56,281 nt of DNA, taken from contig CACAST010000003.1 in the NCBI GenBank assembly GCA_902535185.1, forward strand, positions 1-56,281. Direction: 5' to 3'. Numbering within the stretch: the first letter of the stretch is position 1; the number at the start of each line of letters is the position of its first letter. Made by a program: the position numbers and the translations under genes. Positions 4,667-14,111 of this stretch are shown in pieces. The notes beneath the pieces are model-generated. The model was not told the DNA's origin and did no database searches. It saw nothing but the letters and a program-made list of their open reading frames with translations. This DNA comes from an uncultured Prochlorococcus sp. (GTDB lineage Bacteria; Cyanobacteriota; Cyanobacteriia; PCC-6307; Cyanobiaceae).

Positions 4667-5026
4667 ATGAAAAAGACGTCTATTATCTATTCAGATTTAT
4701 CAAAAAAACAACTAGAAACTCTTAAAGAACTTTACATTAAAAAAAAAGTTGAATCGATGAGTCATCAAGAACTTAAACAATATGTATTAGAAATTATTTC
4801 CCATCAAATAAACGATACTATTGGCAAAGAAGAGGAAATGGAAGCATGGAGAGAAATGTCAGATTTTTTTGGAGAACAATTTGAAATAATTATCATAGAA
4901 ATACAAACAAAATACATTGACGATAAAAACGTAATTGAAACAGAAATAGATTCTCAGAAGCAAAGAATAGATTTGCTTGAAAGAAATAATTTGAATCAAG
5001 AGAAAGAGGATATGTGGGATGACTAA
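4667..5026 (+). CDS. Hypothetical protein, charged/coiled-coil
   Basis: 119-aa ORF outside the left att. Confidence 0.6.
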   Translation: MKKTSIIYSDLSKKQLETLKELYIKKKVESMSHQELKQYVLEIISHQINDTIGKEEEMEAWREMSDFFGEQFEIIIIEIQTKYIDDKNVIETEIDSQKQRIDLLERNNLNQEKEDMWDD

Positions 5027-5352: not shown

Positions 5353-5365
5353 AACTCCCCGGGCG
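5353..5365. repeat. Left att repeat aactccccgggcg
   Basis: Identical to 13302-13314 at the 3' end of tRNA-Asn. Confidence 0.85.
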
Positions 5366-5437
5366 ATTTACTAACAAAGTTATAATAAGCGACTATGACA
5401 GGGTTTAGAAGGGGTTTTCTTTACATATAAGACGGTA

Positions 5438-5457
5438 ACCAGAACGATACCAGAACG
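5438..5457 (+). repeat. Two accagaacg repeats, 11-bp period (left arm-type sites)
   Basis: accagaacg at 5438-5446 and 5449-5457; same motif at the right end. Confidence 0.6.
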
Positions 5458-5467
5458 AATTTCAAAA

Positions 5468-5484
5468 ACTAAGTATAACTTAGT
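5468..5484. promoter_or_regulatory. Palindrome actaagt-ata-acttagt, candidate operator
   Basis: Perfect 7-bp inverted repeat; ctaagtata recurs at 5528-5536. Confidence 0.4.
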
Positions 5485-5559
5485 CAAAAATCAATTCTTA
5501 TTACTTTATAACCCCTAATCTTTGACTCTAAGTATAAAGATTAAAACTTCCTTAAAGTG

Positions 5560-5588
5560 TTGTCAATACTGAAGGTTTGTGTTATAAT
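5560..5588 (+). promoter_or_regulatory. Sigma70-type promoter TTGTCA-N17-TATAAT
   Basis: -35 5560-5565, -10 5583-5588, upstream of the excisionase/integrase pair. Confidence 0.7.
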
Positions 5589-5706
5589 AAAGGGTATAAG
5601 AGAGTATAAAAACCTGTCAGGGTAACTCCACTTATCTCTACGAATTTGAATTGATAATTTATAACAATTCGTCTGTTATTTAACATTTACCGTATAAAAA
5701 TTTAGT

Positions 5707-5925
5707 ATGAAAAACTTAGTTGAGGAGTTATATCCTAAACAGGGTATTCTCTATATGAATGAGATTTGTAATCTCTTGGGAAGACACTATTCGACAATAA
5801 GAAGATGGAGAAAGGAAGACCCAGACTTCCCACCAACCATTTGGATGGACGAGAGGAGTCTTGGATTTAGAAAAGACCTCGTTATCAAATACCTCGAAAA
5901 GAAAGAAAAAGGAGGTAGAAAATAA
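5707..5925 (+). CDS. AlpA-like/MerR-HTH excisionase or regulator
   Basis: 72 aa; YMNEICNLLGRHYSTIRRWRKEDPDFPP...GFRKDLVIKYLEKK; stop overlaps the integrase start (TAATG). Confidence 0.7.
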   Translation: MKNLVEELYPKQGILYMNEICNLLGRHYSTIRRWRKEDPDFPPTIWMDERSLGFRKDLVIKYLEKKEKGGRK

Positions 5926-7199
5926 TGACTGTTGAACTAAAAGAACTTAAAAACTTACCTCACTTAGAAGAAAGAAAATATGTGAAGGTTCAAAAGGGTA
6001 GTGGATTGTTTTTGGTTGTAGAAAATTCCAAAAATAAATGTAAAAGATTTGAAGGTTTGATGAGATACCCGAAAGGTTCAAAAAACAATACTCGTGTTTA
6101 TTTCCCTCATAAATTGAGAGATATGACAAAAGAAATAGAGTTAAATAATCTCCTCACATTATGGGATGAAATAAAAAAATGGAGTAAATCTACTGGGAAA
6201 AATCCTAATGATTACTTCACAAAAGATGAAGTTATAAAATCATCTTTAACTCTTGGAAAGTTGTTCGATAACTACCTTGAATACTATGAAAGTGTTGTAT
6301 CTCCAAGAACTTTTAAGGATAGGAAAAGGAAATTTAGACAGATATGTAATTACTTTGGTGGAGATACCTCTGTGACCGATTTTGAGTGGGATAGAGGGGG
6401 AAGAAGTAAGGTTCTACAACTAATTAAATCTATAAAATCGAGGGGTCATCACAATCACCCTATTAGGATTCGTTCTCTCTTAAAACAATGTTTTGATTGG
6501 GGAATTGGTGAAGGAATATTCCCTAGAAGACAAAATCCTTGTGGGATACCTTTTGATATTGAAAAAGTTGGATTAGAACCAAAAAATAATCCTTCAATAA
6601 AGTGGAGTGAAGTTCCTGATTTATTAGAAAAAATAAATTCATCAACTAATTCAGTCATCACTAAATCTTCTACGAAGTTATATCTAATGACTTGTATAAG
6701 AGTTTCAGTAATTGTCTCTATGAAATGGGATTGGATAGACGAAGAAAGAGAGATGATTGTTATTCCTCCAGAAACGGAAGGATTAAAGAGAACCTTAAGT
6801 AGAAAAAATAATCCCGAATACGAACACTACATTCCTCTAACTGATGAAATTAAAACAATATTGAACAGAATGAGGAAGATTAGTGGAGACAAAGAATATG
6901 TCTTTTGGACTCCTAGATGTGGTCAATATCCTCATCAAAATCCCTCAAGTATCAATATCTTTTTGAAAAGGTTGGGTTACAACAAAAAACTAACTGGTCA
7001 GGGTTGGAGAAGAGTTGTAGTTACTGAAGGACAACAAGTATGTGGAACTGAAAGAGACATTATTGAAAGACAAATAGGACATACAGGATACCGTTCGGGT
7101 TCTATTGGAAGTTATGACAACACTCAATTTCTACCAGAAAGAAAATTATTTCTTGAAAAGTGGTGTAAGGAGTTAGTTAAACAAGGATTAAAAATTTAA
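5925..7199 (+). CDS. int: P4-type tyrosine recombinase/integrase
   Basis: TCIRVSVIVSMKWDWID (Arg I), GQGWRRVVVTEG (box II), DIIERQIGHTGYRSGSIGSYDNTQFLPERKLFLEKW (H and Tyr). Confidence 0.92.
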   Translation: MTVELKELKNLPHLEERKYVKVQKGSGLFLVVENSKNKCKRFEGLMRYPKGSKNNTRVYFPHKLRDMTKEIELNNLLTLWDEIKKWSKSTGKNPNDYFTKDEVIKSSLTLGKLFDNYLEYYESVVSPRTFKDRKRKFRQICNYFGGDTSVTDFEWDRGGRSKVLQLIKSIKSRGHHNHPIRIRSLLKQCFDWGIGEGIFPRRQNPCGIPFDIEKVGLEPKNNPSIKWSEVPDLLEKINSSTNSVITKSSTKLYLMTCIRVSVIVSMKWDWIDEEREMIVIPPETEGLKRTLSRKNNPEYEHYIPLTDEIKTILNRMRKISGDKEYVFWTPRCGQYPHQNPSSINIFLKRLGYNKKLTGQGWRRVVVTEGQQVCGTERDIIERQIGHTGYRSGSIGSYDNTQFLPERKLFLEKWCKELVKQGLKI

Positions 7200-7233
7200 T
7201 ACTCAGGACAACCACGACTGTCCTTATAAACCC

Positions 7234-7253
7234 CCTTCTTATGAGTAAGGAGG
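7234..7253 (+). promoter_or_regulatory. Hairpin CCTTCTTA-tgag-TAAGGAGG containing the SD AAGGAGG
   Basis: 8-bp stem (7 Watson-Crick plus one G-U) burying the SD. Confidence 0.5.
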
Positions 7254-7861
7254 ACGTGATTCATATGTTCAATTTTATTCTTATTATCAAAATGAAAAAA
7301 AATCCTAATTTTATTGAATTACTTGAAGGAATCAAAGAGAATTCAAATTCTTACGAAGACTTAAATAAATTCTTTAATGAAAATTATCCAAATAATCAAA
7401 AAGGTTACTTCAAATTTTTAACCTCCAGAAGTAGATTTTTAATTACTGAAGAAGACTTTGATTTTGCAATAGATACCCACGACAAATTTAAACGTTCAAC
7501 TACTAAAGAAGACATTGAATCGTTACAACAAGAAAAAGAAGAGTTCCTAAAAAATAATTACACTAAAGGGGATTTTTGTCCTACTGATTTTTATAGACGA
7601 TTAGAACTCGACTTACTTTATGGAAGAAAGTTTAAAGGTGGAATAAGGTCAAAAATTAGAGAACACATAGAGGAAAGAACAAAACATCTTTTTGAAAATA
7701 ATCCTCTAGGAGAAGGTGGATACAAAGTTAATTACACCAATCTTTTAGAAGGGGTAGTGAAAAATTTATTTGATTCAGTAAGGGATGTTGAAGAAAAATT
7801 AGAAGAATTACAAAAATTTGATTTGGATAAAGAAATTGATTTATTAAAGGAGGAAAACTAA
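7241..7861 (+). CDS. Hypothetical element protein; true start possibly GTG 7256 or ATG 7265
   Basis: 206-aa ORF; SD AAGGAGG 7247-7253 lies inside the listed ORF, suggesting a downstream start. Confidence 0.65.
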   Translation: MSKEDVIHMFNFILIIKMKKNPNFIELLEGIKENSNSYEDLNKFFNENYPNNQKGYFKFLTSRSRFLITEEDFDFAIDTHDKFKRSTTKEDIESLQQEKEEFLKNNYTKGDFCPTDFYRRLELDLLYGRKFKGGIRSKIREHIEERTKHLFENNPLGEGGYKVNYTNLLEGVVKNLFDSVRDVEEKLEELQKFDLDKEIDLLKEEN

Positions 7862-8106
7862 TGGATTTTGAATCAGGAAAAATTTATTCCAAAGAGGAAG
7901 TTAAAGAACTCGAACTAATGGGAGTATTTCATCCAATTAGAAAAGTAACTCTTATGGATGGTTCTTGTGTTCATATAGACAGAGTTACAGGGATAACTTG
8001 TTCTCTTGAAGAAGAACAAAAGAAGAAAGAAAAACGAGAAGAAAATTATAGACAACGTATGAGAATCAAGTATCAACTAAACGAATTAAATCAGGAGGAA
8101 AACTAA
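7861..8106 (+). CDS. Small hypothetical element protein
   Basis: SD aaaggaggaaaactaATG; overlaps neighbours by 1 nt. Confidence 0.65.
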   Translation: MDFESGKIYSKEEVKELELMGVFHPIRKVTLMDGSCVHIDRVTGITCSLEEEQKKKEKREENYRQRMRIKYQLNELNQEEN

Positions 8107-8303
8107 TGAAATTAACAGACAAAAAAGTTAGAGATGGATTAAATTTTATCTATAAAGAATATGAAAACAATATTGTCTCGAAAGAAGAAATTTTTGATTA
8201 TGTGAGAGATGTTCATTACATAGACTCCACTGGTATGACATATCAAAAGTGGTTGGAGGAGAACCAACCCATTAAGTGGATACAGGAGAGAGAAAATTAT
8301 TGA
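8106..8303 (+). CDS. Small hypothetical element protein
   Basis: SD caggaggaaaactaATG; 65 aa. Confidence 0.6.
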   Translation: MKLTDKKVRDGLNFIYKEYENNIVSKEEIFDYVRDVHYIDSTGMTYQKWLEENQPIKWIQERENY

Positions 8304-8308
8304 ATTAA

Positions 8309-8441
8309 AGGTGTCGTCTATGGGTATAGTTCGACACCTATAAAAAATACGACACTTTTTACCCCTATAAAGTGCCGTATCAGGGTCGTATGTTGCCATT
8401 TACGACAGTTCGATTATGATTAACCCAGATACGACAGTTTT
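8309..8441. other. res-like recombination/operator site array for the serine recombinase
   Basis: Inverted repeats aggtgtcg/cgacacct (8309-8339), atacgacact/agtgccgtat (8347-8380), gtcgta/tacgac (8385-8406); tacgacagtt repeated at 8401 and 8430. Confidence 0.65.
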
Positions 8442-8443
8442 AA

Positions 8444-8992
8444 ATGAAAGTTTCATACATCCGTGTTAGTTCTCAACAACAGTCATTAGAAGTTCAACGT
8501 GAATCCGTAATGAAATACGGAGTCGATAAGATTTTTGAAGAAAAAGTCTCAGGAACTTCAACAGATAAAAGAGAACAACTTAAACAATGTCTCGAATTTG
8601 TTCGTGAAGGAGATGAGTTAGTCATCACAAGGATTGACCGACTTGCACGTTCTGTTTTGGATTTACAGTTAATCGTCAAACAACTAATGGATAAGGGTGT
8701 AACTCTAACTTCAACAGAACAACCAATTTCAACGAAAGATGCAACTTCTAAATGTTTCCTCGATATGTTGGGAGTTTTTGCAGAATTAGAAACTAATATC
8801 CGTAAAGAACGTCAAATGGAAGGGATAGAACTTGCAAAACGTAAGGGAGTCTATAAAGGAGGAACTCAACGAATAGATGTTGAGGAAATCAAACGTTTGA
8901 AGAGTGAAGGATTAGGGGTGACTAAAATCGCAAAACAAATGGGTATTCATAGAGATAGTGTTTATAGACTTCTTAAAAAAGTGGAAGTCTAA
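8444..8992 (+). CDS. Serine recombinase, small resolvase/invertase family
   Basis: VSYIRVSSQQQSLEVQR catalytic region, ITRIDRLARSVLDL, C-terminal HTH GVTKIAKQMGIHRDSVYRLLKK. Confidence 0.93.
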   Translation: MKVSYIRVSSQQQSLEVQRESVMKYGVDKIFEEKVSGTSTDKREQLKQCLEFVREGDELVITRIDRLARSVLDLQLIVKQLMDKGVTLTSTEQPISTKDATSKCFLDMLGVFAELETNIRKERQMEGIELAKRKGVYKGGTQRIDVEEIKRLKSEGLGVTKIAKQMGIHRDSVYRLLKKVEV

Positions 8993-9188
8993 AATTCAAA
9001 AATCCCTGTGAAAATTACATAGTTTATAAATAGTCAAATACATAGTTGATGAATCTTATGAACTGATGTTCTTCCTATGGGAGAGTCAGGAGGATTAGTT
9101 CAACGTTAAATAAAAAAGATTACCCAGACTTGTATTTGGGATGAACTTCGTGTGTCTAACGAAAAAAACAAATCAATAGAACTGTTAA

Positions 9189-9773
9189 ATGAATCAACTA
9201 GAAACTATCCATAAGGAATGGTTAATGAAAACTTGGGATGATTATCCACCAGAATGGTTCATCACTTTTAGATATAGAAATCAACCTAAAACAATTAAAA
9301 CTGTTGAATCTTACATAAGTGAATTTCATAAGTTATTCCGTCAAAAATTTCATTGGAGAATAAAAGGTAGAGTCACTCGAAGTTCAAATATTCCTATGTT
9401 TCCTCAAGGGATAGGGATGGTTCATTTTCACGAAAAAAGTGATGACGTAAATGAAAATACAGGTAAATTAGTTCAACCTTTTCATACTCATACTCACTTA
9501 TCAAATACAAAAGGATATTTCAAAACTCCTAACGAACTTCGTTATTTCATAAACGGATTCATTCAAGAATGTAAGAAAAAGAAAAAACAGGATGGTTCAA
9601 GATACTTGGAAAATTTCTGTTATTTAAATAGAGAAGAAGATGTAAGAGTTTGGAATTATAAACATCATTCCCAATACAACATCAGTAGTAGAAAGAAAAA
9701 AATGAAAGAATATCTAGTTGGAAAACCAGAGTTAGACATATTCAGTTTCGACCATTTAACCACTCACTTTTAA
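9189..9773 (+). CDS. Candidate HUH-type replication initiator/relaxase-like protein
   Basis: Motif-I-like WFITFRYR, HUH-like PFHTHTHL, possible Tyr motif VWNYKHHSQYN; 194 aa. Confidence 0.5.
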   Translation: MNQLETIHKEWLMKTWDDYPPEWFITFRYRNQPKTIKTVESYISEFHKLFRQKFHWRIKGRVTRSSNIPMFPQGIGMVHFHEKSDDVNENTGKLVQPFHTHTHLSNTKGYFKTPNELRYFINGFIQECKKKKKQDGSRYLENFCYLNREEDVRVWNYKHHSQYNISSRKKKMKEYLVGKPELDIFSFDHLTTHF

Positions 9774-9779
9774 TCAATT

Positions 9780-10022
9780 ATGAATTACAACGAATACAGA
9801 GAATACCTTAAGAACAAAAAACTTGAGGAACAACAAATAAGAGATGAAACACCAAAAAAAGAGACTATAACAATGTATTTTGGGGAACGTCACTTTGATA
9901 CCCTTAATGAGTTTGACACCCTTACAAGACGACTCAGGAGGAGTAGAACAGGAACATTAGACTTCCTTTTGAACTACTACAAACAGACTGAAAAACGAAG
10001 AGTTGAACCAGTCATTCTTTAA
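9780..10022 (+). CDS. Small RHH-like protein
   Basis: ETITMYFGERHFDTLNEFDTLTRRLRRSRTGTLDFLLNYY resembles ribbon-helix-helix. Confidence 0.45.
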   Translation: MNYNEYREYLKNKKLEEQQIRDETPKKETITMYFGERHFDTLNEFDTLTRRLRRSRTGTLDFLLNYYKQTEKRRVEPVIL

Positions 10023-10037
10023 CCACCTGGAATTTTT

Positions 10038-10184
10038 ATGAAGAGGGATAAAGAGTATTTCCGTAGATTAAAATACTTCAAAAAAATGGTCGAAGATTCC
10101 TTTAAACGTAGAGGACAATCATTAAACAAGTATCAACTTGTTTCTCTTGTTTCCGTCTTATTGGATGAATCATATCGAAAATAA
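10038..10184 (+). CDS. Small ORF, 48 aa, basic (MKRDKEYFRRLKYFKKMVEDSFKRRGQSLNKYQLVSLVSVLLDESYRK)
   Basis: Translated by eye; between 80-aa ORF and a terminator. Confidence 0.5.
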   Translation: MKRDKEYFRRLKYFKKMVEDSFKRRGQSLNKYQLVSLVSVLLDESYRK

Positions 10185-10187
10185 AAA

Positions 10188-10226
10188 AAAAGACTCAGGA
10201 GAAAATCAGTAAATCCTAAGTCTTTT
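10188..10226. terminator. Strong hairpin terminator
   Basis: aaaagactcagga / tcctaagtctttt, 13-position stem with one mismatch (G-U on minus strand), A/T tracts both sides. Confidence 0.75.
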
Positions 10227-10344
10227 CTTATTATCAAAAGTGGATGTTTCTACATATCCATTACTATTTATGAAACTTGTTTTAGGAAGATATCGCCATT
10301 TCTAACATTTAACGGAATAATTAGAACCCCACACACAATTAAAA

Positions 10345-10827
10345 ATGTTGAAATCTATTCTCTCCGTTGGGATTGGGATGGTTTTGTTATTACCTTCTCC
10401 ACCAATTAAATCTGGAACAAAAAAAGTATCTTTGTTAAATCTCAATCAACCATATCAAGACCAATGGGAAAAAGATGGTAATAAAAGAATCCCTTTTAAA
10501 TCTGTTGAAGATAATAATAATCTTTGGAAGGATGTGATTAAAAGTAGAAACAAAGTTGCGGGATATTATGATACTGAATTCGCAAATCGTATAAATTATT
10601 GTCGATATATCGGGGAAAGTATTGTTCTCCAGAAGAAAGAAAAGTTCATTCTTGAGAACGTCTTGAAATATATGTTGAGATGTAATCACACTCAACAACA
10701 AATGATTACTCGTTATTTGGAGAAGGATTATAAGGATGATGAAAAAGTATTATCTCAGGAATTGATTAGTTTATATGTCTATAAAGAAGATGAAGATGTA
10801 AATGAATTTATGAGGGATAAAAAATGA
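10345..10827 (+). CDS. Hypothetical protein with predicted N-terminal signal/membrane segment
   Basis: MLKSILSVGIGMVLLLPSPPIKSG hydrophobic N-terminus; 160 aa. Confidence 0.6.
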   Translation: MLKSILSVGIGMVLLLPSPPIKSGTKKVSLLNLNQPYQDQWEKDGNKRIPFKSVEDNNNLWKDVIKSRNKVAGYYDTEFANRINYCRYIGESIVLQKKEKFILENVLKYMLRCNHTQQQMITRYLEKDYKDDEKVLSQELISLYVYKEDEDVNEFMRDKK

Positions 10828-10979
10828 GAGATATATTCGACAAAGATTTTTTAAAACAACTCATCTTGATTTGGGTTGGAACTAATATTGCAAAACAAAC
10901 ATTCAAAGAACCGAAACAAAGATGTGGGAGAGTTTCTAATATGAAACCCCAAGAAATCATCAATAATGGTGGGAAATAA
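10824..10979 (+). CDS. Small ORF, 51 aa (MRDIFDKDFLKQLILIWVGTNIAKQTFKEPKQRCGRVSNMKPQEIINNGGK)
   Basis: ATGA overlap with upstream ORF. Confidence 0.5.
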   Translation: MRDIFDKDFLKQLILIWVGTNIAKQTFKEPKQRCGRVSNMKPQEIINNGGK

Positions 10980-11034
10980 CAAAAAAAATATCAATAAAAA
11001 TATACTTGTGTTCTTTATCTAAGACTTCTTTCTA

Positions 11035-11622
11035 TCAAGAAGGTCGAATAACCTCAGTAACACCACCACCATTTAATTCCCAAGGGTATAAATCTTCACC
11101 ATCATATTCAATCCTACAGAGGTTCTCTCTACCCTCACGATTAACAGTAATGGTGATTAGTTCCACCTCAAATTCATCACCCTTATAGAAATCAACATTA
11201 CCCCAAACACCTTTTAAATTTTCTTCTTTCAACAACCAGTAATCCTCATCTTTTAACTGACTATCATCAACTGGTTCAGTAATTTTTTCATCCTCTTTAT
11301 CCATTTCTTGAAGACAGTTTTCTAACCCCAGAACTTCAATTCCTAGTTCTTCAAAAGTCTTAGTTTCGTTCAAACATACTGTTTCACCTGTATCGTTATT
11401 TTTTAAATAAATTTTGAGATATTCATATACAACACCACCTTCAATATCCTCATCTTCATCATATTCATACTCCCATTCATCTCTCTCAAGTAGTTCTCCT
11501 GTCTTCTTATCAAATCTGTTTAGAGAAGTGAATCTTTTACACTCAAACTGAGTTCCTACACCCTCAAAAGTAAGTGTTCTATATGACTCAGGATTATTGA
11601 TTGTCATTCCTAAACTTCCCAA
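11035..11622 (-). CDS. Acidic hypothetical protein
   Basis: 195 aa, D/E-rich; overlaps the upstream minus-strand ORF. Confidence 0.6.
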   Translation of the reverse strand: MGSLGMTINNPESYRTLTFEGVGTQFECKRFTSLNRFDKKTGELLERDEWEYEYDEDEDIEGGVVYEYLKIYLKNNDTGETVCLNETKTFEELGIEVLGLENCLQEMDKEDEKITEPVDDSQLKDEDYWLLKEENLKGVWGNVDFYKGDEFEVELITITVNREGRENLCRIEYDGEDLYPWELNGGGVTEVIRPS

Positions 11623-12023
11623 TCAACGTCATCATCTTCATCCTCATCATTTAGAGAATTAGTATCTACCTCATCTAACTTTTTAGTCTCGTTATTCCAT
11701 ACCCAATAACTAACGTAATTAGTATCTCCTTCTATAAAGTCTTCTAGTTCAAGAGTCTCAGGATTTATGTAGTAATGACTCCACGTCATAAAATCCATAC
11801 GAACATCTAATTTTTCTACTTTTTTATCTTCAATATATTTTTCTAGATACTTATCAATATCATCAGTATCCTTAAATTCATTAAAAAATGGAGTGAAGGT
11901 AAAACCATCTCCATCACTCATCTCAACGTCAATACAACTACTAAAAAAATGAAACTCAGGAGGATTTCTATCGGGATATAAATTACCAACTCCAAATTTC
12001 TCTATTTTCCTTTCTTCAGTCAC
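11610..12023 (-). CDS. Highly acidic hypothetical protein
   Basis: 137 aa ending in NDEDEDDDVDWEV. Confidence 0.6.
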   Translation of the reverse strand: MTEERKIEKFGVGNLYPDRNPPEFHFFSSCIDVEMSDGDGFTFTPFFNEFKDTDDIDKYLEKYIEDKKVEKLDVRMDFMTWSHYYINPETLELEDFIEGDTNYVSYWVWNNETKKLDEVDTNSLNDEDEDDDVDWEV

Positions 12024-12113
12024 ATTGAAATTTTTACTAATTATAAATAATTACATAATAATTTATACACAAGATGGAGATGTGAAGTGAATTTATTCCA
12101 TTTCGATTCTTAA

Positions 12114-12161
12114 ATAATTTCCTCCATCATCACAAGGGACAGTGACTTTGGAGGAAATTAT
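12114..12161 (+). promoter_or_regulatory. SD/start-codon-sequestering hairpin
   Basis: Perfect 13-bp inverted repeat ataatttcctcca (12114-12126) / tggaggaaattat (12149-12161); inner tcac/gtga stem; SD and AT of ATG are in the 3' arm. Confidence 0.65.
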
Positions 12162-12384
12162 GTCATTTAAACACGAGTGTAAGTATTTATCAGGATTAGT
12201 AATTGACTACAAAAAAAAGTTGAAAGACCCGTTCTGGACTGGTTTTGAGGACATTTTTAAAGAGTTAATTATGGAAACTGAACGCAAACTTTACCTTATT
12301 AAAGAACAAGAATTATGCGAACTATTAACCTTAACAAAAACAACCAACACAATCTCCCAGTCTCTTTCAATTCAAGAGAGTTAG
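12160..12384 (+). CDS. Small hypothetical protein, start re-called from GTG 12142 to ATG 12160
   Basis: ggagg-aaatt-ATG gives better SD spacing; MSFKHECKYLSGLVIDYKKK... Confidence 0.5.
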   Translation: MSFKHECKYLSGLVIDYKKKLKDPFWTGFEDIFKELIMETERKLYLIKEQELCELLTLTKTTNTISQSLSIQES

Positions 12385-12494
12385 AACTTGCAAGACGTTG
12401 GGATGAATACTGTTGTGACAATCACATCACTCGAAGTAGTGCAATTAAGAGACTAATTAAGAAAGAACTTAAAGAACAATTACTCGCAATTTAA
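12315..12494 (+). CDS. Small RHH-like protein, 59 aa, overlapping the preceding ORF in another frame
   Basis: MRTINLNKNNQHNLPVSFNSRELELARRWDEYCCDNHITRSSAIKRLIKKELKEQLLAI. Confidence 0.45.
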   Translation: MRTINLNKNNQHNLPVSFNSRELELARRWDEYCCDNHITRSSAIKRLIKKELKEQLLAI

Positions 12495-12503
12495 TTATTA
12501 ACT

Positions 12504-12650
12504 ATGAAAAATGTCACGTTAAATAATATCGACTATCAAATGTTGATGGAATTAAGTAAGAAACAAGGGGTTAATCTTAATTCCTTTGTTTCTACTTTGG
12601 TCAATAATCTTTATACAGAGATGAAAAGAACTGGGAGAAAACCATTATGA
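12504..12650 (+). CDS. Small RHH-like protein, 48 aa
   Basis: MKNVTLNNIDYQMLMELSKKQGVNLNSFVSTLVNNLYTEMKRTGRKPL; ATGA overlap with next ORF. Confidence 0.5.
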   Translation: MKNVTLNNIDYQMLMELSKKQGVNLNSFVSTLVNNLYTEMKRTGRKPL

Positions 12651-13132
12651 ATCCTTCAATAAGTAGGAAGATGGATATGGTAAAAAACGTCTTTCTTAAT
12701 AAAAAAAGACTCGAAGAAAGTCTTACATTTGCGGAATTTATTGACAATAATCCTAGATATTATGATGATATTGATGAATTTTATGAAGAAGATTATCCAC
12801 AATTACAGTTACTAATTGAAGGTAATTCCAATAGGAAAGTATCAACTAAGAAAAATAAAATATCAAATAAGAAAATCTGTCGAATAAAAAATAATAAAGG
12901 TGACTTTGTAGATATAAAAAAAATCAAACAGGATAAAAAGGATGACTCTCACGTCCTCGAACTTCCTCCTCCTGATGGAGATGAAAACCTGATAACCATA
13001 GGTAATCAAATGTCCATCCCTGAGAGTTTGAGACTTTTAGAAAAGGTAAAAAGAGGAAAGAAAAAATTTAGAGATTTTATGAATCAAAAACCAACTTTTA
13101 TTAGGAAGAAAACTGAAGAAATTCTCTTCTAA
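12647..13132 (+). CDS. Hypothetical element protein, lysine-rich
   Basis: 161-aa ORF coupled by ATGA. Confidence 0.6.
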   Translation: MNPSISRKMDMVKNVFLNKKRLEESLTFAEFIDNNPRYYDDIDEFYEEDYPQLQLLIEGNSNRKVSTKKNKISNKKICRIKNNKGDFVDIKKIKQDKKDDSHVLELPPPDGDENLITIGNQMSIPESLRLLEKVKRGKKKFRDFMNQKPTFIRKKTEEILF

Positions 13133-13136
13133 ATTC

Positions 13137-13179
13137 ACCAGAACGGTTTTTATATTGATACCAGAACACTACCAGAACG
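13137..13179 (+). repeat. Three accagaac repeats (right arm-type sites)
   Basis: accagaacg 13137, accagaaca 13160, accagaacg 13171; inverted half ggttctgg at 13210-13217. Confidence 0.6.
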
Positions 13180-13252
13180 GTTTTACAAAAATGATGGATA
13201 ATTAAAGAAGGTTCTGGAAACTGTTTTTTGTTAAAAAACCTGTGATAGACAC

Positions 13253-13278
13253 AAAAAAAGAGACTTTTTAGTCTCTTT
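13253..13278 (-). terminator. Intrinsic terminator for tRNA-Asn supplied by the element
   Basis: Minus strand AAAGAGAC-TAAAAA-GTCTCTTTTTTT, perfect 8-bp stem plus T tract. Confidence 0.75.
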
Positions 13279-13303
13279 AGTCACTTATGGAAGTAGTAAT
13301 GAA

Positions 13304-13375
<72 letters not shown>

Positions 13376-13424
13376 ATATAGAATGAATTTAGCTCTTTAA
13401 AGTACCTTATGACAAGTACAAGAA

Positions 13425-14111
13425 TTAATTATATTGAAATTTGGATGGTTCTTGCCAGTTAGATAAAAAACCATTTTTCAACTCTGCTACTGCATCAGCA
13501 TAAGTTAATTCTTCATAACGATGAGTAATCCACAAAGCCGATAAAGGTTTTTTATGGTCACTTGTAAGATTTTTAATAGTTTTTAAAACTTTTAATTGGC
13601 TGGTTTGATCAAGTAAAGCTGTAGGCTCATCTAAAAGAATAAAATTTCTATTGCTAATCAGAGCGCATGCAATAGTTAAGCGTTGTTTTTGTCCACCGCT
13701 CAAAGTATGAACTGGCCTTTTTTCAAAACCTGTCATTCCTACCTCTTCAAGAACATATTCAATTTTTTTATTAATTTCATTTTGACTTATATTCTGATTA
13801 ATATTAATCAGAAGTTCACTCCTACAATTTGGCATCAATATTTGATGATCAGGGTTTTGAAACACCATGCCAATATTCGCATTAGAATCAATTGCACCAT
13901 TTTGGGGTTTGATTATTCCATTAATTAATTTTAAAAGAGTACTTTTTCCGCTTCCGTTTTTACCTACGACCATCCAAAATCCAGGTCTTTTTATTGAGAA
14001 GTTACATTTAAAAATTAAATTTTCTTTCTCTCCAGGATATGAAAAAGAAACATCTTTAAATTTAATATGAGGTATTTCACTTTCAAGGGAATCTCGCATT
14101 AATTCTGTCAA
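13425..14111 (-). CDS. ABC transporter ATP-binding protein (ECF/cobalt-like)
   Basis: VGKNGSGKSTLLKLING, TLSGGQKQRLTIACAL, LLDEPTALLD. Confidence 0.88.
   Translation of the reverse strand: MTELMRDSLESEIPHIKFKDVSFSYPGEKENLIFKCNFSIKRPGFWMVVGKNGSGKSTLLKLINGIIKPQNGAIDSNANIGMVFQNPDHQILMPNCRSELLININQNISQNEINKKIEYVLEEVGMTGFEKRPVHTLSGGQKQRLTIACALISNRNFILLDEPTALLDQTSQLKVLKTIKNLTSDHKKPLSALWITHRYEELTYADAVAELKNGFLSNWQEPSKFQYN

Follow-up and report, generated by a model that had tools for sequence, protein, structure and literature searches.

Prochlorococcus genomes are streamlined and yet highly variable at islands linked to tRNA genes, and the means by which such islands are copied and spread remain to be explained. 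The locus considered here lies in a 56,281-nucleotide stretch of DNA (hereafter, the window) from contig CACAST010000003.1 of an uncultured Prochlorococcus sp., where a sequence-only reading had described a minimal, tycheposon-like element of about 8 kb at a tRNA-Asn gene and had suggested that it might replicate as a circle. This hedged description gained support from an empty insertion site, a relative in a tRNA-Ser gene, the conserved HUH and Tyr residues of a family of Rep-like proteins, and a res-like site. Judged from genome comparisons, the 8-kb stretch is a genuine, intact and recently mobile integrative element in tRNA-Asn. We consider it probable, at about 0.72, that it is a plasmid-like integrative element, one that excises, replicates as a circle via its Rep-like protein and resolves multimers. 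It carries an integrase, a replication-initiator-like protein and a resolvase, and therefore probably cycles between an integrated form and a circular, self-copying form.

The ends of the element were defined by the 13-mer AACTCCCCGGGCG, which occurs in two exact copies in the window, a pairing that none of 100 dinucleotide-shuffled sequences reproduced, even when one mismatch was tolerated. The right copy represents the 3' end of a tRNA, because a tRNA-Asn(GTT) gene occupies that position on the minus strand, and the claim that 13-bp direct repeats copied from a tRNA 3' end flank about 8 kb was thereby borne out. The features that delimit the element are as follows:

5353-5365, left direct repeat (attL core), a displaced copy of the 3' end of tRNA-Asn, identified by repeat search and from empty-site alleles
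13302-13314, right direct repeat (attR core), within the tRNA-Asn 3' end
13303-13376, minus strand, tRNA-Asn(GTT), intact (ARAGORN; Rfam tRNA, 67.5 bits over 13304-13375)

The element measures 7,949 bp (interior plus one repeat copy), the two repeat copies are identical, and the tRNA gene was kept intact by the insertion; in the Rfam scan the tRNA was the sole match. When same-genus genomes were queried with the tRNA-to-ABC flank, a precise empty site was found in ten loci (L019, L020, L023, L026-L030, L034 and L037), in which the left flank of the window through 5365 meets the tRNA side from 13299 via a single repeat copy, and all ten junction sequences read straight through with no scar. An allele lacking exactly 5353-13301 therefore exists in ten genomes, and the region is not syntenic core, relatives being without it at that position. 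The distribution of the element is patchy, near relatives lacking it, and in further genomes the same tRNA-Asn is occupied by other DNA, including four elements whose integrases are related (L050, L053, L054 and L055). One of these (L053, 7435-14030, genome G035) is a different element whose cargo resembles, by eye, a type I restriction-modification operon. A ~1-kb insert lies at the same tRNA-Asn in genome G001 (L021, 1-1495) between two copies of the left flank and repeat, and is perhaps the remnant of an earlier element. A DUF7326 gene at 4667-5026 was considered as part of the element and rejected as a flanking gene, since it adjoins rpaA elsewhere, including in one empty-site genome.

Tycheposons are reportedly tRNA-associated tyrosine-recombinase elements of Prochlorococcus with direct repeats and a patchy distribution. 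The window element resembles them in lying at a tRNA gene with a duplicated 3' end, in carrying a tyrosine recombinase, and in its repeats and distribution. It differs in having a Rep-ribbon-helix-helix (RHH)-resolvase backbone and no recognized metabolic cargo or viral-satellite module; in agreement with the sequence-only reading, no capsid or terminase gene was recognized among its open reading frames (ORFs) in Pfam, PHROGs and NCBIfam, several of these ORFs being orphans, and relaxase and conjugation genes were likewise not recognized there. We thus regard the element as tycheposon-like by tRNA site and tyrosine recombinase.

The recombination functions and their probable binding sites are located at the two ends of the element:

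5707-5925, plus strand, AlpA/excisionase-like helix-turn-helix (HTH) protein, 72 amino acids (PF12728, E=9.9e-5, below the cut-off; phrog_66 excisionase/regulator, E=5.6e-5)
5925-7199, plus strand, P4-type tyrosine integrase, 424 amino acids (PF00589, E=4.7e-8; phrog_1, E=3.4e-30; PRK09692, 5.6e-14)
5438-5457, plus strand, left integrase arm-type sites, two copies of ACCAGAACG 11 bp apart (0 of 500 shuffles)
13137-13179, plus strand, right integrase arm-type sites, three copies of ACCAGAAC

The C-terminal active-site region of the integrase is conserved in alignment. The repeat ACCAGAAC is present at both ends on one strand, with two copies on the left and three on the right, and a complete related element in genome G607 has the same geometry built from another sequence (ATCCCTGACAC). 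Repeats of this kind were found at fixed positions in all 11 repeat-bounded Prochlorococcus elements examined, in 10 of them by an automatic 8-mer search and in L055 by eye. The left sites lie at about +85 and +96 from the left repeat, and the right sites at about -165, -143 and -132 from the tRNA end in the integrase clade associated with tRNA-Asn and tRNA-Ser(CGA), or about -199, -134 and -122 in the tRNA-Ser(GCT) clade. With automatic detection, the arrangement was reached in 0 of 500 shuffles in each case. We infer that these fixed-position repeats are putative integrase arm-type sites, the sequence of which co-varies with the integrase.

The relative in G607 (L091) lies in tRNA-Ser(CGA) between copies of the 11-bp repeat CACCCTCTCCG at L091:4498-4508 and 13829-13839. 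Compared with the window, its resolvase is 73% identical, its Rep 69%, its RHH-like ORFs 70-100% and its orphans 195, 80b and 161 77-84%, whereas the integrase is only 39% identical. A partial relative in AG-355-P18 (G027) has a Rep that is 33% identical, orf160 at 95%, orf51 at 100%, and a different resolvase. In a tree of 14 Prochlorococcus tRNA-element integrases, the window copy stands apart from those of the four other tRNA-Asn elements and near a tRNA-Ser(TGA) integrase (support 90/96), and the grouping in the resolvase tree differs from that in the integrase tree. Given a shared backbone with a swapped integrase and discordant trees, integrase, resolvase and Rep have therefore been exchanged as modules. 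In AG-418-G18 (L004/L062), what is left of a decayed Rep gene, interrupted by internal stops, lies near a flanking gene (MSKGFATDN...) that also borders the AG-355-P18 element (L048/L061), which suggests a repeatedly used site.

The genes on which the proposed replication and resolution of the element depend form a compact group:

8309-8406, res-like site with three inverted repeats at 8309-8339 (31 bp), 8347-8380 (34 bp) and 8385-8406 (22 bp)
8444-8992, plus strand, small serine recombinase of resolvase/invertase type, 182 amino acids (PF00239, E=6e-38; HTH_7, PF02796, 2.3e-5; phrog_125, 5.8e-58)
9123-9140, possible stem-loop CCCAgacttgtattTGGG in the Res-Rep interval, weak candidate origin (alignment with a compensatory change in G607)
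9189-9773, plus strand, Rep-like protein, putative HUH replication initiator, 194 amino acids (motif order in homologues; weak microvirus VP4 profile match)
9780-10022, plus strand, RHH-like small protein after Rep, 80 amino acids (adjoins Rep in most Rep loci; predicted beta-alpha-alpha)
10038-10184, plus strand, further small protein encoded in the Rep operon, 48 amino acids (87.5% in G027, 70% in G607)

Within the genomes searched, the Rep-like protein is a member of an undescribed, Cyanobiaceae-only family. Homologues were detected in 11 of 400 family genomes (marine Synechococcus-type, with the window's own genome counted) and also in a few Prochlorococcus, and were confined to Cyanobiaceae among 242 genomes of the class. 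In a 12-member alignment (A2), the invariant residues are P, F, T, E82, H99, H101, W155 and Y163, and the consensus reads PxWFITIxW ... FHERK ... FHTHLHL ... HHAxYNLKDYY. Motif I, an FLTLT-like strand, is represented by PxWFITIxW, and motif II by the invariant H99 and H101, with HTHLHL in most members; the candidate for motif III is the invariant Tyr, with YxxK in most relatives but not in the window copy. When distant relatives were added, to give up to 14 diverse members, E, W and Tyr were kept in all, and L057 loses the first His (GTH). As read from these alignments, the motif order of the family (FITxxY, E, HxH, Tyr) is that of HUH rolling-circle initiators. It is also the order seen in the REP_ORF2-G2P and microvirus VP4 initiators of PF23343 (FITLTY - E - HxH - YxxxY/K), and motif I and the E were aligned correctly in a profile comparison with VP4 Reps, but the window protein has no significant hidden Markov model match to PF23343 and its profile similarity is weak; matches to REP_ORF2-G2P in cyanobacterial genomes were limited to three distant genomes of the phylum. 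Near-identical integrases in three tRNA-Ser(GCT) elements (L056, L057 and L058) are accompanied by a second, divergent Rep-like subfamily that retains YxxK and has two small RHH-like ORFs after it, and the L058 copy, a distant relative, matches PF23343 at E = 0.076.

Most Rep genes are followed by an RHH-like ORF of ~60 amino acids. In at least 11 Rep loci, a serine recombinase gene lies no more than a few kb away, and among these loci are tRNA-Cys and tRNA-Phe islands that carry the other class of picocyanobacterial integrase; Res or Rep neighbors recur across integrase classes and tRNAs. Rolling-circle plasmids of the pMV158 CopG-RepB type encode a Rep together with a small RHH repressor, and the element resembles them in pairing a small HUH-type Rep with small RHH-like proteins and in having a resolvase as a stability gene, while it differs in its reversed gene order, its chromosomal integration and the lack of a plasmid Rep match in PLSDB. 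For the RHH-like protein at 9780-10022, AlphaFold2 gave a beta-alpha-alpha arrangement at a predicted local distance difference test (pLDDT) value of 61, a low to moderate confidence that makes it a hint only. The resolvase comprises a catalytic domain and a C-terminal HTH, and the region directly upstream of it has a much stronger fold than its shuffled versions (z = -4.7; none of 200 folded as well); the 31/34/22-bp series of inverted repeats there is similar to a Tn3/gamma-delta res site. The AlpA-like protein, P4-type integrase, serine resolvase and RHH ORFs named in the sequence-only reading were each found, by family matches that for RHH, and for the AlpA-like protein in Pfam, fell below the cut-off.

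In picocyanobacterial tRNA-Phe and tRNA-Cys islands, a novel tyrosine integrase with a small serine recombinase nearby has been described (PMC10187409). The tRNA linkage and the small serine recombinase are shared with the window element, whereas the integrase family differs and Rep is not mentioned in the portion of that report consulted. Homologues of the window Rep occur in such islands, at tRNA-Cys (L077 and L078) and at tRNA-Phe (L092). The last of these (genome G021, 8291-11759) has a tRNA-Phe/Cys-type integrase, a resolvase 55% identical to that of the window and a distant Rep homologue, and so connects a single Rep-Res cassette with both classes of integrase.

The remaining ORFs of the element are mostly orphans:

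7241-7861, plus strand, orphan, 206 amino acids (no significant family)
7861-8106, plus strand, orphan, 81 amino acids (no family)
8106-8303, plus strand, orphan, 65 amino acids (no family; 41% match in another element, L060)
10345-10827, plus strand, orphan with a signal-peptide-like N-terminus (orf160), 160 amino acids (95% in G027)
10824-10979, plus strand, orphan (orf51), 51 amino acids (100% in G027)
11035-11622, minus strand, acidic orphan, 195 amino acids (77% in G607; 50 D/E versus 20 K/R)
11610-12023, minus strand, acidic orphan, 137 amino acids (39 D/E versus 13 K/R)
12142-12384, plus strand, orphan (80b), 80 amino acids (84% in G607)
12315-12494, plus strand, RHH-like protein, 59 amino acids (RHH_1, E=0.07; 100% in G607)
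12504-12650, plus strand, RHH-like protein, 48 amino acids (RHH_3, E=0.0014, below the cut-off; 100% in G607)
12647-13132, plus strand, orphan (orf161), 161 amino acids (82% in G607)

The two acidic orphans (11035-12023) overlap and could be DNA mimics. All ORFs tested were intact, and the gene set is maintained, because ratios of nonsynonymous to synonymous substitution (dN/dS) were low: Rep gave 0.23, Res 0.13 and a further nine ORFs 0-0.36, among them orf160 (0.11) and orf161 (0.17). Sequence comparison demonstrates mobility, along with site-specific insertion, the scarless empty allele, module exchange and selective maintenance; circle replication and multimer resolution are what we infer. 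In the cycle that we propose, the integrase would bind the 13-bp core together with the five arm-type sites and excise a circle, the AlpA-like protein serving as its directionality factor or as a regulator. The Rep-like protein would nick an origin on this circle, close to Res-Rep, and so set off rolling-circle replication. The RHH-like proteins, whose genes follow directly downstream, would act as copy-number or transcription regulators, and the serine resolvase, at the res-like site upstream of its gene, would reduce multimers to monomers able to reintegrate at a tRNA. Because no virion, terminase or conjugation genes were recognized, exit from the cell would require a vehicle, whether a vesicle, a phage particle or natural uptake.

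Several observations weigh against this plasmid-like cycle. The attP circular junction, sought as a pattern in the window's own assembly (fragmented, 1.02 Mb in 62 contigs, 65% complete, with Prochlorococcus single-cell genomes as its named near relatives), was not found. The stem-loop CCCAgacttgtattTGGG was rated only a weak candidate double-strand origin because its region folds no better than shuffles (z about -0.9, not significant). In relatives the res-like subsites are degenerate, with the blocks kept but not every arm. For the Rep-like protein, searches of Pfam, PHROGs, NCBIfam, PDB, and phage and plasmid collections gave nothing significant, and tblastn gave no match in the phage and PLSDB plasmid collections; comparison with the VP4 profile yielded a weak hit (P = 0.0018, against 0.088 for the reversed control; probability 15%); and its AlphaFold2 model, built from two sequences, was uninformative (pLDDT 41), with no confident HUH fold. 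The YxxK Lys is absent from the window copy (YNIS) and from those of G607 and AG-355-P18. The "candidate HUH Rep" of the sequence-only reading accordingly holds for the motif order in homologues, but the protein has no database family and the window copy lacks the YxxK Lys. The missing family assignment and the low-confidence model would also suit a transposase- or nuclease-type protein, with an element that replicates only within the chromosome. We consider this decidedly unlikely, as a plasmid Rep would account for the motif order E-HxH-Tyr (followed in most relatives by xxK), for the RHH-like partner in the operon and for the linkage to a resolvase. The absent Lys, together with the decayed Rep remnant of AG-418-G18, could likewise point to a degenerating island, formerly mobile and now fixed with an inactive Rep, but the intact ORFs with low dN/dS, the identical repeats, the patchy distribution and the near relatives lacking the element make this highly unlikely. 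HUH Rep-like proteins serve as relaxases in some integrative mobilizable elements, and this role is the argument for reading the protein as a small Rep-type relaxase that nicks an origin of transfer (oriT) for helper-driven conjugative transfer. Such an element seems scarcely plausible, given that Pfam and NCBIfam showed no match to a relaxase family, that PLSDB held no related plasmid and that none of the element ORFs is a conjugation gene.

A different alternative is a phage satellite without packaging genes of its own, in which excision is triggered by a cyanophage, Rep concatemers are packaged by the headful, and the resolvase produces monomers in the new host before integration. Such a life cycle would resemble that of the PICMI satellites of Vibrionaceae, which carry AlpA, an integrase and a replication gene without capsid or terminase, replicate by rolling circle and are packaged as a concatemer (PMC10803314). 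The window element is small, follows the same plan, and has a resolvase that would solve the concatemer problem; moreover, tycheposons are listed among proposed marine satellite families (PMC11389934). In contrast, PICMI elements lie beside fis, encode a DUF3987/DUF5906 primase and have no resolvase, whereas the window element is at tRNA-Asn with a Rep-like protein and a resolvase, and showed neither a significant primase family match nor a fis site. Single-protein scans of IMG/VR with Rep, Int, orf160 and orf161 gave no close relative, although such pattern-based scans miss distant ones, and an integrase profile scan of IMG/VR returned distant integrases only. A satellite life cycle is, in our judgement, rather unlikely; for the plasmid-like element that we favor, a PICMI-like exit in phage particles would nevertheless be possible, because PICMI, too, lack capsid and terminase and replicate by rolling circle.

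Within one small element, it is possible to assign a replication candidate, which belongs to a Rep family without annotation, together with its regulators, a resolvase and what looks like its cognate site, and a full attachment anatomy. The arm-site geometry offers a sequence-independent signature with which to find and delimit such elements, and it also opens excision and rolling-circle replication to a direct test by junction polymerase chain reaction. With less than even confidence, we put forward the tentative proposal that an undescribed, picocyanobacteria-restricted cassette of HUH-type Rep, RHH and serine resolvase serves tRNA-integrating elements as a common module for replication and stability, and passes among elements whose integrases are unrelated. 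Plasmids are not known in Prochlorococcus. If the proposal is true, the Rep-RHH-resolvase cassette would make Prochlorococcus a host to plasmid-like replicons hidden in tRNA genes, and their rolling-circle concatemers might travel by cyanophage or vesicles and be resolved to monomers on arrival.

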